From Chitinophaga pinensis (lineage in GTDB: Bacteria > Bacteroidota > Bacteroidia > NS11-12g > UBA955), in contig CAMDAF010000003.1 of NCBI GenBank assembly GCA_945888525.1, forward strand, positions 1 to 64,000: a stretch of 64,000 nt of DNA, written 5' to 3'. Numbering within the stretch: position 1 is the stretch's first letter; each line of letters starts with the position of its first letter. A model generated the notes under the pieces. It saw nothing but the letters and a program-made list of their open reading frames with translations. It had not been told where the DNA came from and ran no database searches. Positions 1,443 to 55,145 of this stretch are shown in pieces. Both the position numbers and the translations under genes were made by a program.

Positions 1443-3140
1443 ATGGCTTATCGCTGGACCGCCGCACCGAAACTCAATGATCAAAAGGTAGAACAACTGG
1501 CTGAGCTCATTAATGTATCCCCAATAATCGCTCGGTTATTGCTTCAAAGGGGTGTTGAAACCTTTGAACAAGCCAAGAAATTTTTCAGACCTCAATTGAC
1601 CGATTTATACGACCCATTCTTGATGAAAGATATGGACAAAGCCATAGACCGAATTATTTTGGGTTTGCACCGCAAAGAGCGTTTAATGGTTTATGGCGAT
1701 TACGATGTTGATGGAACCACTTCTGTTTCGATTGTATTTTCTTACTTCTCAAAATTCACATCGAACATTGAATACTATATCCCTGACCGTTACAAGGAAG
1801 GTTATGGCATTTCTAAAATAGGCATAGATTACGCCAAGGAAACAGGCGTTTCACTGATAATTGCCCTGGACTGCGGCACCCGTTCAATCGAATTGATAGC
1901 TTATGCTGCTAGTTTGGGCATAGACTTTATTGTGTGCGACCACCACTTACCCGGCGATGAATTGCCAGATGCGGTTGCCTTATTAAACCCCAAAAGAAAA
2001 GATTGCACCTACCCATACAAAGAATTATCAGGCTGTGGCATCGGATTCAAACTGATTCAAGCATACGCGCAAGCAAACGATTTTTCTTTCGACGATGTTT
2101 GCAAATATTTAGACCTTGTGGCCGTGAGTACCTGCAGCGACATTGTGGAAATAAGAGACGAGAATAGAATATTGGTTTATTACGGACTTAAAAAAATTAA
2201 TGAAAACCCATGCATTGGCTTGCAAGCCCTATTGCAGAGTTACCAAATAAAAGAAGAATACGAGGTGTCTGACATTGTGTTTGGCATAGGCCCTAAAATC
2301 AACGCCGCCGGCAGAATAGCCGATGCAAAATCTTCTGTTAAACTTTTAATAGAAGAGGACTTTCACCAAGCGCGTTTACTAGCCAAAACCTTAATTGACA
2401 ACAATACAGAGCGCAAAGATATAGACAGCGATATCACCAAAGAAGCTATGGAAATGTTGGAAAATAGCGCTGAATTAAGAAGCCGTAAAAGCACTGTTTT
2501 ATACAGCGAAAAATGGCATAAAGGTGTCATTGGAATTGTGGCTTCGCGTTTAATTGAAACATATTACAAACCAACCATTATTTTTTCAGAAGTTAATGGC
2601 ATGTTGACTGGATCGGCCCGCAGTATCAAGGACTTTGATGTGCATGATGCCATTGGTTCTTGTGGCGATTTGGTGGTGCAATACGGAGGGCATAAATATG
2701 CGGCAGGCTTAACCATTAAAAAAGAACAATTTGAGGCCTTTACCGAAAGATTCGAAGAAATTGTCAATCAAAATTCTACCGAAGAATTAAGGACTCCCGA
2801 GATATCTTACGATACAGAAATTGACTTTAGCGAAATTACCCAAAAGTTCTTTGTGGTATTGGATCAGTTTAAACCGCACGGACCAGGCAATATGACCCCT
2901 ATTTTCAGAACCAACCATGTGGCTGATTCAGGAAGTAGAATCGTAAAAGAAAAACATTTAAAATTAGTTGCCTATCAAAGCGGTACGCGATTTGATGGTA
3001 TAGCATTTAATATGAGTGATGCCTTCCCAATGATTAGTAAAAATCTTCCTTTTGATGTATGCTATTCTTTGGAGATGAATGAATTCAAAGGTGTTCGAAA
3101 CCTACAATTAAAAGTTAGAGACATTCGCCCAACGGTATGA
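1443..3140 (+). CDS. recJ: single-stranded-DNA-specific exonuclease RecJ
   Basis: DHH phosphoesterase motifs ([35 protein letters not shown]) and DHHA1 region ([11 protein letters not shown]). Confidence 0.95.
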
Positions 3141-3889
3141 AATTAAGAGCAGAAAAACTCGTAAAACAATACAAACAAAAAAAGGTTGTAAATGATGTTT
3201 CCATTTATGTGGAACAAGGTGAAATAGTTGGACTCTTAGGTCCAAATGGCGCGGGTAAAACCACATCATTTTACATGACGGTAGGCCTGGTAAAACCAGA
3301 CGAAGGTCATATCTATTTAGACGACGAGGAAATCACCAAACTACCCATGTACAAAAGGGCTCAAAAAGGGGTTGGCTATTTGCCACAAGAAGCCTCTGTG
3401 TACCGCGACTTAACGGTTGAAGATAATATTTTGGCCGTTTTAGAATTGACCAAACTGAGCAAGACAGAACAAACCGAAAAGCTAGAAAGTTTGTTGAATG
3501 AATTCAACTTGCAAAGGGTTAGGAAAAATTTAGGCAAGGTTTTGAGCGGTGGTGAACGCAGAAGAACTGAAATTGCCCGTGCCTTGGCCACAGATCCGAA
3601 ATTCATCCTACTTGACGAACCATTTGCGGGTGTTGACCCTATTGCGGTTGAAGACATCCAAAATATTGTTTACAAACTTAAAAGCAAGAATATTGGCATT
3701 TTAATTACCGACCATAACGTGCAAGAGACCTTGAGTATTACCGATAGAGCCTATTTGCTTTTTGAAGGAAAACTTTTAAAACAAGGAAGTGCCGAAGAAT
3801 TGGCTGAAGATGAAATGGTAAGAAAAGTTTATTTAGGAAAAAACTTCGTTTTGCGAAGAGCTATAGCCCCCAACAAACCAGACGCTTGA
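3137..3889 (+). CDS. lptB: LPS export ABC transporter ATP-binding protein
   Basis: Walker [10 protein letters not shown], signature [15 protein letters not shown], Walker [13 protein letters not shown]; 4-bp overlap with recJ. Confidence 0.95.
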
Positions 3890-27932: not shown

Positions 27933-28350
27933 TTTAGGGTCTAGGGTATAGGGTATAGTTTTTATTGAGTAAACTTGAACTTTTCGCTACTTAACAGTCC
28001 ATTTTTCTTGTTAAGAAGAATAGAATAATTAGGATTTCTAATATAGAAAAACGATCTTGAAAGTATATTCAAATCCTCAGTATAGAAGCATTACGAATAC
28101 AAACCAACCACTAGTTTAAACGGCAATTAATTAAATGTCGGAATAATGAAGCAAGATCGAATCCTAATCCCTAGCCCCTAGACCCTAACCCCTGATAGGA
28201 AACGCAATAATTTGAATTAATGAGATAACTAAGCGTATTCGACCACTAAACCCTATCCCCTAACCCCTGATAGGAAACGCAATGATTTGAATTAATGAGA
28301 TAACTAAGCGCATTCGACCACTAAACCCTAGCCCCTAGACCCTAGCCCCT
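27933..28350. repeat. intergenic repeat element, copy A, with TAGGG-type inverted ends
   Basis: Left TTTAGGGTCTAGGGTATAGGGTATAG (27933-27958), right CTAAACCCTAGCCCCTAGACCCTAGCCCCT (28321-28350); subterminal TGAGTAAACTTGAACTTT (27966-27983). Confidence 0.8.
28191..28340. repeat. two tandem copies of a 75-bp unit inside repeat copy A
   Basis: cctgataggaaacgcaatRatttgaattaatgagataactaagcgYattcgaccactaaaccctaKcccctaRMc at 28191-28265 and 28266-28340. Confidence 0.95.
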
Positions 28351-28388
28351 CCTATTTTCCTTTTCTTGTTCTTTTGATTCTTTATTCT

Positions 28389-48731: not shown

Positions 48732-48830
48732 AATAATATTTGTGATTGAGCAACAACAGCAAGAGGGCTGAGTTGAGTCGGAAATATTGAATGTTACCGA
48801 TACTAATAACCAATAACTATTAACTAATAA

Positions 48831-49970
48831 CTACTTCAAAATATCACGTGCAATAACAACACGTTGTATTTCACTGGTGCCTTCGTAGATTTGGGTAATC
48901 TTTGCATCGCGCATTAAACGCTCTACGTGGTACTCTTTTACGTAACCGTATCCACCGTGAACTTGAACCGCTTCAACCGTTGTTTTCATTGCTACTTCAC
49001 TGGCAAATAACTTAGCCATACTGCCAGCTCTGTTGTAATCCATATGTTGGTCTTTTAACCAAGCAGCTTTTAAACACAACATTCTAGCTGCTTCAATTTC
49101 AGTAGCCATATCAGCCAATTTGAATTGAATGGCTTGGTGGTTCATAATCTCTGTGCCAAATGCTTTTCTTTCTTTAGAATATTTAATAGCCAATTCATAA
49201 GCGCCGCTAGCAATACCTAATGCTTGAGCAGCAATACCAATACGTCCGCCAGTTAAGGTTTTCATGGCAAACTTAAATCCAAATCCATCTTCACCTATTC
49301 TGTTTGCTTTCGGAACTTTTACATCCGTAAACATTAATGAATGTGTATCACTTCCGCGAATACCCATTTTATCTTCTTTTTTTCCAACCACAAAACCATC
49401 CAGTCCACCCTCAACAATAAATGCATTGATGCCTTTATGACCAGCCTCAACATTCGTTTGTGCAATTACCAAGTAAATAGAAGCAGTTTTACCATTGGTA
49501 ATCCAATTCTTAGTACCGTTTAATAAGTAATAATCGCCCATGTCGATAGCAGTGGTTCTTTGTGAAGTAGCATCGCTACCAGCTTCTGGCTCACTTAAAC
49601 AAAATGCACCATGCACTTCGCCTTTCGCCAATGGAACCAAGTACTTCATTTTTTGTTCTTCTGAACCAAAGGTTTCCAAGCCCCAGCAAACCAATGAATT
49701 GTTTACAGACACTACCACAGAGGCAGAAGCATCTATCTTGCTCAGCTCTTCCATAGCCAATACATAACTTACTGTATCCATGCCGCTTCCCCCGTATTTA
49801 GGATCTACCATCATACCCAAAAAGCCCAATTCGCCTAACTTTTTAATTTGTTCAGCTGGAAATTCTTGGTTGTTGTCGCGCTCAATTACACCCGGTAATA
49901 ACTCGGTTTGTGCAAAGTCCCTAGCAGCTTGTTGTACTGCTAATTGTTCTTCTGTTAGTTCAAAATTCAT
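48831..49970 (-). CDS. acyl-CoA dehydrogenase
   Basis: GAFCLSEPEAGSDATSQRTTA, GGYGYVKEYHVERLMRDAKITQIYEGTSEIQRVVIAR. Confidence 0.95.
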   Translation of the reverse strand: MNFELTEEQLAVQQAARDFAQTELLPGVIERDNNQEFPAEQIKKLGELGFLGMMVDPKYGGSGMDTVSYVLAMEELSKIDASASVVVSVNNSLVCWGLETFGSEEQKMKYLVPLAKGEVHGAFCLSEPEAGSDATSQRTTAIDMGDYYLLNGTKNWITNGKTASIYLVIAQTNVEAGHKGINAFIVEGGLDGFVVGKKEDKMGIRGSDTHSLMFTDVKVPKANRIGEDGFGFKFAMKTLTGGRIGIAAQALGIASGAYELAIKYSKERKAFGTEIMNHQAIQFKLADMATEIEAARMLCLKAAWLKDQHMDYNRAGSMAKLFASEVAMKTTVEAVQVHGGYGYVKEYHVERLMRDAKITQIYEGTSEIQRVVIARDILK

Positions 49971-53401: not shown

Positions 53402-53641
53402 TTTAGTTAGGGTATAGGGGTTAGCGTATAGGGTATAGATTATAATGAGTAAGCTTGAACTTTACGTTTTTAGGAAATTGAATGCATTAAATTAATCTTC
53501 AGTTCAATACTTATAGTTTTTTGTGTAAATATTAATCAAGTTATCTTATTAATAACTAAATCAACGAAGCGTCTTCAACGACTAAACCCTAGCCCCTACT
53601 CTGCTCACCGGAGTGAAACGAAGGTGAGTCCCCTAGACCCT
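53402..53641. repeat. intergenic repeat element, copy B, with TAGGG-type inverted ends
   Basis: GCGTATAGGGTATAG-N7-TGAGTAAGCTTGAACTTT (53424-53463) and ACTAAACCCTAGCCCCTA (53581-53598) ... CCCCTAGACCCT; same left-end layout as copy A. Confidence 0.75.
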
Positions 53642-55145
53642 GTCCTCTTAAAATTTCCTCCAAAATCTCCCTATTATTGCTCAACCTTGGCACCTTGTTT
53701 TGACCACCCAATTTGCCTTTAAACTTCAACCAATTGTAAAAAGTATTGCTTGGCATTGATTGAATTCGTGGCATTTTTAAGGCAATATCTTTGTGGCGCT
53801 TGGCCTCATAGTCGCTGTTAATTTCTTTTAATTTGCTGTCTAAGGCCGAGGCAAAATCATGTAAATTATTAGGTTCGGTTTCAAATTCTATCAACCACTC
53901 ATGACCGGCATGGTCTTCCTTATCTAAATATATAGGCCCAGCTGTATACTCGCGTACCTTGCTGTCTGTTACCTGACAAGCATGTGCTATGGCCTTTTCT
54001 GCGTTTTCTATCACCACCTCTTCGCCAAAGGCATTAATGAACAATTTGGTGCGGCCAGTGATGTGAAATTTATATGGATTAACCTTTGCGAATGTAATGG
54101 TATCGCCCAATTGGTAGCGCCACAATCCACTGTTGTTGCTTATTACAACGGCATAATTAACCCCTGCTTCAACCTCCCCCAATAAATAAGTTTCGGGATG
54201 CTCTTGGGTCAAATCACTTGCCTTTATAAATTCATAAAAAATGCCATAATCTGGCATCAATTGCATAGCCGTATCGTTTAGGTCGCTTTGTATTCCAAAA
54301 AATCCCTCGCTGGCATTGTAGGTCTCCAAATACTTCATATTCGAATTGGAAATCATGCGCTTAAATAAGTCTCTATAGGGGGTAAAACTGACCCCTCCAT
54401 GAATGTACAATTGCAAGTTAGGCCAAACATCCGAAATATTATTGGTGCCTTTCATGGCCATAAGTTTTTCCATTAATACAATGGTCCAAGTAGGCACACC
54501 AGAAATACTGGTTACATTTTCTTGAACCACTTGTGTGGCCATTTTTTCAAGCTTCAATTCCCAATCGTCCATCAAAGCTATCGATTTATCGGGGGTCTTT
54601 AGCAAGTTGGCCCAAGTGGGCATATTGTTCATTAAGACCGCACTTAGATCGCCGTAAAATGAATTTTCATTAAAGGAATTGATTTTGTGTGATCCTCCAA
54701 TAAGCAAACTCTTGCCATCAAACACCTCGGTATCTGGGGCATTCATACAGTAGTATGTCAAAACATCTTTACCGCCTTGAAAATGGCATTCCTCCAGGGT
54801 TTCGTAACTAACGGGAATAAACTTGCTTTTGTCGTTGGTGGTTCCGCTGCTTTTGGCAAACCAAACAATTTCACCTGGCCATAAAACATTGGCCGCACCT
54901 TCCATTACACGCTCTATAAAAGGCTTAAGTGTTTCGTAGTCTTGTAAAGGAAAACGGTTCTTAAAATCTTGGTAATTATCTATAGATTTAAAATCGTAGG
55001 TTTTACCCCACTCAGTGTCCTTGGCATCATTCACCAAGCGTTTTAAAACATCCAATTGCACTTCGGCAGCGTTTTTTACGGCAGCATCTAAAAACGCTAC
55101 GCGCTTCCTAAAATACCATCCCATCATTGTGCTCAAAACCGCCAT
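53589..55145 (-). CDS. GH3 (auxin-responsive promoter-like) family protein
   Basis: IVWFAKSSGTTNDKSKFIPVSYE, YNASEGFFGIQSD, LWRYQLGDTITF, HITGRTKLFINAFGEEVVIENAEKA. The last about 20 codons derive from a repeat element. Confidence 0.9.
   Translation of the reverse strand: MAVLSTMMGWYFRKRVAFLDAAVKNAAEVQLDVLKRLVNDAKDTEWGKTYDFKSIDNYQDFKNRFPLQDYETLKPFIERVMEGAANVLWPGEIVWFAKSSGTTNDKSKFIPVSYETLEECHFQGGKDVLTYYCMNAPDTEVFDGKSLLIGGSHKINSFNENSFYGDLSAVLMNNMPTWANLLKTPDKSIALMDDWELKLEKMATQVVQENVTSISGVPTWTIVLMEKLMAMKGTNNISDVWPNLQLYIHGGVSFTPYRDLFKRMISNSNMKYLETYNASEGFFGIQSDLNDTAMQLMPDYGIFYEFIKASDLTQEHPETYLLGEVEAGVNYAVVISNNSGLWRYQLGDTITFAKVNPYKFHITGRTKLFINAFGEEVVIENAEKAIAHACQVTDSKVREYTAGPIYLDKEDHAGHEWLIEFETEPNNLHDFASALDSKLKEINSDYEAKRHKDIALKMPRIQSMPSNTFYNWLKFKGKLGGQNKVPRLSNNREILEEILRGQGLGDSPSFHSGEQSRG

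Follow-up and report, generated by a model that had tools for sequence, protein, structure and literature searches.

Noncoding intergenic elements with inverted heptad arrays, and a proposed relation to IVP genes

Results

Two noncoding elements between genes of the window

The window, i.e. the whole stretch of 64,000 nucleotides that was analysed, belongs to a genome (G000) of 2.42 Mb in 63 contigs with an estimated completeness of 98%. Its first element (locus 1) lies in the divergent intergenic gap of an iaaA-like gene and an E2 gene and consists, in this order, of a left TAGGGnn array, the conserved inner end, a noncoding core, a right inner end, an array facing the opposite way and two end modules. 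A sequence-only reading of this DNA had taken the 418 bp for one element; the extent was confirmed but the unity was not, as locus 1 is a composite in which an element of approximately 255 bp (27933-28190) precedes a tandem pair of 75-bp end modules. Its features are the following.

27933-28351, no strand: composite element, locus 1; outer boundaries common to congener G010, core different there; slot in congener G009 with an IVP gene (stand-alone gene of a 23S-rRNA-intervening-sequence protein, 'four helix bundle', PF05635)
27935-27958, plus strand: left heptad array TAGGGTC TAGGGTA TAGGGTA TAG, from the sequence
27966-27983, plus strand: conserved inner end TGAGTAAACTTGAACTTT, from 18-mer searches and alignment of copies
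27984-28163, no strand: noncoding core, including the right inner end (GGAATAATGAAGC...), by alignment a diverged homologue of other copies
28164-28194, minus strand: first right heptad array, CCCTA orientation, from the sequence
28171-28320, no strand: two tandem 75-bp end modules with a heptad array in each; 28171-28245 and 28246-28320 are 92% alike
28321-28351, minus strand: outermost right heptad array CTAAACCCTAGCCCCTAGACCCTAGCCCCT, from the sequence

The second copy (locus 2) occupies the whole gap from the 3' end of a tRNA (53400) to a GH3-like gene. Its right array is interrupted by an extra hairpin and also provides the stop codon of the GH3-like gene.

53402-53645, no strand: second copy, from the sequence, the Rfam tRNA, alignment with other copies and the G010 slot
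53408-53438, plus strand: left heptad array of copy 2, from the sequence
53446-53463, plus strand: conserved inner end of copy 2, TGAGTAAGCTTGAACTTT, from 18-mer searches
53582-53598, minus strand: right heptad array of copy 2, in which the minus-strand TAG at 53589-53591 serves as stop codon for the GH3-like gene (53589-55145)
53599-53642, no strand: stem-loop (CTCACC GGAGTGAAACGAA GGTGAG) and last heptad of copy 2, read by eye

A search of the window with Rfam families returned two tRNAs only. The telomere-like character attributed to the ends holds for the sequence, but not for a location at chromosome ends, both copies being internal between genes. A different flavour of heptad (ACTAATAACCAATAACTATTAACTAATAAC) forms a third array at 48799-48837, where an acyl-CoA dehydrogenase-like gene (48831-49970, minus strand) has its 3' end and, inside the array, its stop codon. 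The hairpin module of locus 2 (53599-53632) was also seen within arrays on contigs C1, C6, C9, C20, C21, C28 and C41 of G000. Its stem varies between copies (CTCACC/GGTGAG, TTCACC/GGTGAA, CCCACC/..GTGGG) around a loop, TTCGTTTCACTCC, that is similar throughout, and by eye it looks like a covarying hairpin. A palindrome, CCCGATAGCTATCGGG, or close variants of it stand between heptads at C6:26064, C14:19153, C41:1169 and C21:16333.

A dispersed family with related cores

Within the window the conserved 18-mer occurs twice, with no third match at up to three mismatches; shuffled windows gave a mean of 0.21 matches and in no case two. The spacing from TAG to the 18-mer is 7 nt at both loci (TTTTTAT and ATTATAA), and the sequence, the coordinates and this spaced pair were all as the sequence-only reading had given them. 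Genome-wide copy structure in G000 was taken from pattern searches and from stretches of sequence. Copies were found beyond the two loci: the 18-mer had nine matches at up to two mismatches against one for the reversed pattern, of which the match at C2:20495 is probably due to chance, because it is without surrounding arrays. The description of the inverted ends as built from TAGGGnn units was likewise borne out, the heptad pattern TAGGGNNTAGGGNNTAG giving 85 matches in G000 against one for the reversed control. Array pairs at most 450 bp apart were inward-facing in nine cases, outward-facing in none and in the same direction in eight.

Seven copies from G000 (both window loci and five others) and one from G010 could be aligned over their full length, with a mean column identity of 56%; the cores are therefore related and not arbitrary. 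Of the proposed conserved ends with a variable core, divergence of the core is thus retained, whereas an unrelated core is contradicted by the full-length alignment with six other copies. The similarity also extends, as had been asked of a genuine family, beyond the TAGGG ends and into relatives, the G010 copy aligning in its core and copies related to the window family being present in G009 and G010.

The heptad arrays of the window family are degenerate 7-mers in intergenic positions. In the inspected copies they form terminal inverted repeats that enclose cargo, each arm being a degenerate array of 2-5 units in variable number. Element copies in G000 are frequently located at contig ends, and draft genomes break at heptad-array repeats. 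Folding of the noncoding element alone as RNA gave a weak structure (covariation term +0.66), with pairing mainly between the arms.

Slots with exchanged cargo in congeners

Among G000 and 16 congeners, heptad arrays are abundant in G000, G005, G010, G009 and G008; G001 and G013 have few, and none were found in the rest. Cargo is exchanged between species within the same slot. The IVP gene in the iaaA/E2 slot of G009 is accompanied by other repeats, and in several less closely related congeners this gap measures only some 100 bp; the locus-2 slot of G010 contains an additional end module. Between sdhA and sdhB, TAGGGnn-type arrays bracket an IVP gene in G005 and G013, noncoding heptads are found in G000 and G009, and short junctions in G015, G011, G006, G014 and G004; within the genus of the window, six species have IVP at this site, belonging to two subfamilies with different heptads. 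Several heptad flavours coexist within one slot. Although slot contents vary, neither a clean empty allele nor a target-site duplication was found in the slots compared between species. Two short ORFs with a HigBA-type toxin-antitoxin likeness, judged by eye, were noted between two heptad elements of G005 (C186:11700-12400). On contig C68 of G009 a RAYT-like transposase sits where G000 has element 3 of contig C6, a heptad element.

The elements could be classical MITEs, i.e. forms, shortened by deletion, of a DNA transposon that had heptad-rich inverted ends and whose transposase was lost or lies outside the assembly. Inverted ends, a length of 200-250 bp, several homologous full-length copies, the intergenic location and the patchy occurrence among congeners are in keeping with this origin. 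However, none of the loci read from G000, G005, G009 and G010 contained an autonomous copy in which such arrays enclose a transposase, no target duplication was seen in the slots compared, and degenerate arms of 2-5 units are unlike fixed transposon ends. We regard a MITE origin as quite unlikely. The resemblance to MITEs that had been noted from the sequence thus holds for a dispersed, multi-copy, noncoding, inverted-ended element, but not for ends matching an autonomous transposon, of which none was present in the loci read; membership is unproven, since the slots compared yielded neither a clean empty site nor a target duplication, and the loci read no transposase.

The same reading had considered a REP-like element with a RAYT partner. 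Short hairpin modules with REP-like stems do occur inside the arrays, and a congener, G009, possesses a RAYT. This RAYT is, however, flanked by its own, different inverted repeats, and G000, estimated to be 98% complete, had no Y1_Tnp (RAYT) match. Mobilisation of a REP/BIME element by a RAYT transposase is accordingly very improbable, and for G000 this reading is largely refuted. A retroelement or reverse-transcription route, including a diversity-generating retroelement (Avd relative), was also considered; against it counts that no reverse transcriptase was found in 16 of 17 genomes of the genus, G000 among them, with a single partial match overall.

IVP genes are bracketed by inverted period-7/8 arrays

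Since arrays surround the IVP gene in G005 and G013, IVP genes in general were examined for such bracketing. One named-genome scan provided 80 IVP loci from Bacteroidota, Proteobacteria, candidate phyla, Firmicutes, Chloroflexi, Acidobacteria and others; it favours one IVP subfamily, because two peptide patterns were used. The mean of the best lag-7 self-match at these loci was 18.3 of 28 upstream and 16.9 downstream, compared with 12.1 in 2186 control windows. Lag 14 was also raised and lag 8 in a minority, while other lags were at or near background. Inverted similarity of the two flanks scored 33.5 within loci, against 17.5 between loci and 17.0 in random windows; direct similarity scored 17.1.

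A second sample of 30 IVP loci was chosen by HMM only from 149 Bacteroidota genomes, which corrects the subfamily bias within this one phylum. With thresholds (18/28 and score 30) that had been set after the first distribution was seen and were kept at the same values for this sample and its control, 53% of the IVP loci had lag-7 periodicity and 40% had strong inverted arms, and for 30 ParE-toxin loci each value was 0% (p = 2e-7, only a guide because loci of one genus are not independent). IVP genes are thus generally bracketed by inverted period-7/8 arrays and the ParE controls are not; the genus set of the window itself repeats the association.

The heptads might alternatively be self-expanding simple repeats (STRR-like), propagated by slippage and recombination, with IVP or other cargo trapped and the arrays being sites and not termini. 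Dispersed heptads without an assigned mobile element are known from other genomes (PMC4692102, PMC4679880), the coexistence of flavours in one slot fits such repeats, and slots take unrelated inserts such as the RAYT in G009. Yet inverted arrays match within a locus and much less between loci, a pattern that slippage alone does not give, and ParE genes, which are likewise mobile and intergenic, are without such arrays. This alternative is considered unlikely.

IVP genes are common, being present in 117 of the 149 sampled Bacteroidota genomes with up to 16 copies. One Flavobacterium slot contains an IVP gene or its remains in 14 of 29 classified species, and a short noncoding inverted-heptad hairpin in several others. 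Two Flavobacterium species (G213 and G237) have a different inverted repeat in this slot (CCTCTCCAAAGGAGAGGG...), apparently another MITE-like family. At 3006-3430 of a viral, high-GC IMG/VR contig an IVP gene was observed between TAGGGCT and CCCAAGC heptad arrays. Inside the inverted arms of the window copies no IVP (PF05635) ORF was found, and no IVP remnants were detected at E<=0.001 in these or other element cores of G000. The two IVP genes that G000 does have (on C21 and C17) adjoin period-6 repeats (GTGAGTGTGAAA...) and not TAGGGnn arrays; the assembly thus lacks the partner of the window family.

The solved structure closest to IVP is 2GSC (XCC0516), which we take from the XCC locus tag to be an X. 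campestris protein; five chains are listed for 2GSC and five for another solved relative, 2RLD. To our knowledge, stand-alone IVP genes have no established function, and IVP is not known as a transposase. A limited literature search found nothing linking PF05635/IVP genes with heptad arrays.

TAG units at array and gene ends

The array unit differs between lineages. Reading inward, TAG was present in 51 of 82 heptad units (18.5 expected) and 16 of 19 octad units (4.7 expected), and inward runs of at least three TAGs at 7-8 nt amounted to 2.38 per kb beside IVP and 0.029 per kb elsewhere in the same loci (approximately 80-fold). The latter signature was less pronounced among the 30 HMM-chosen Bacteroidota loci, of which 5 had it; TAG is therefore common but not universal. 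TAA and TGA were not enriched, and the hypothesis that any stop codon would serve was rejected on this ground.

Arrays at gene ends could have a regulatory or processing role, supplying RNA stems and stops to translation in all three frames and thereby insulating the adjacent genes. Of 45 arrays, 11 contain or adjoin the stop codon of a long ORF, which in some cases falls exactly on the first TAG of the array, and three-frame stops on reading inward were present in 61% of arms compared with 15% after shuffling. In the C6 slot of G000 the gene upstream terminates with ...TAT TAG where the first heptad starts, its orthologs having TGA or TAA instead. Against this role stand the restriction of the enrichment to TAG, units without stops in some lineages (e.g. 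AGTGGCA) and the lack of arrays in most congeners, and we hold it to be improbable.

Discussion

The data suggest that one unrecognised class of selfish element lies behind both the noncoding repeats and the IVP-bearing loci. Probably, if with some reservation, the window family belongs to this IVP/inverted-array class as gene-less members that were spread by some activity. The layout is 5'-(TAGnnnn)n - cargo - (nnnnCTA)n-3', placed exactly between genes; the cargo is a stand-alone IVP gene in many bacteria and a noncoding core of 100-250 bp in the window family, whose copies would be gene-less derivatives. The arrays would be the functional ends, and copies may spread or turn over, perhaps with IVP binding to repeated TAG units of single-stranded DNA or RNA. 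By analogy with 23S rRNA intervening sequences the arms may pair in transcripts, and an insertion in an operon could then be processed in the same way. The slots with and without IVP in Flavobacterium and at sdhA-sdhB in the genus of the window would represent the relation proposed here between window elements and IVP elements. On the other side, the inner ends of the noncoding family have no visible relation to those of IVP elements, and the array might serve as a permissive target, or result from recombination, without being a terminus.

A wider generalisation is offered tentatively and is the more doubtful of the two: minimal mobile elements across phyla might consist of IVP with inverted (TAG-N4/5)n arms, a pentameric IVP recognising the units, in which case the many orphan heptads of bacterial genomes, including the window element, would represent their termini or forms without the gene, and a 23S rRNA intervening sequence would be the same element inserted in rRNA. 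The association of IVP genes with heptad repeats, whose origin had not been described, makes a single testable system out of two loose ends and supplies a concrete candidate binding substrate for IVP.

Several known systems resemble the window family in part. MITEs share inverted ends, noncoding content, dispersal and an association with tandem repeats, as in the P. gingivalis MITE, which reportedly carries a minisatellite (PMC4596501); the window family is unlike them in its heptad-array ends and in that no parental transposase was found in the loci read. REP/RAYT systems have intergenic hairpin modules in high copy number as well, but their transposase is absent from G000. TAACTGA heptamers of Beggiatoaceae, cyanobacteria and Bacteroidetes, for which a translational or regulatory role was proposed, are also intergenic heptads near gene boundaries with a patchy distribution, but are mostly direct and single-sided where the window arrays are inverted (PMC4679880). 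The GGGNATC heptads of Xanthomonas and Nostoc are degenerate, G-rich and intergenic, with about four units, and X. campestris has approximately 70 inverted GGGAATC pairs; they share with the window arrays the degenerate, G-rich, intergenic heptads and the inverted pairs, whereas the unit differs and neither a mobile element nor an IVP link was reported for them (PMC4692102).

The 23S rRNA intervening sequence of Coxiella is an insertion of approximately 430 nt with terminal inverted repeats as a stem and an S23p/IVP ORF in the loop. Such sequences are cleaved by RNase III, and were earlier proposed to be mobile elements with the ORF aiding mobility (PMC4990558 and work cited therein). The Coxiella sequence is located in rRNA helices and has one 28-bp stem, whereas the elements described here lie between protein genes and have arms of period-7/8 arrays; it contains an IVP ORF and the window copies contain none. 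Both have terminal inverted repeats, and in the congener elements, as in Coxiella, an IVP ORF is found between the arms.
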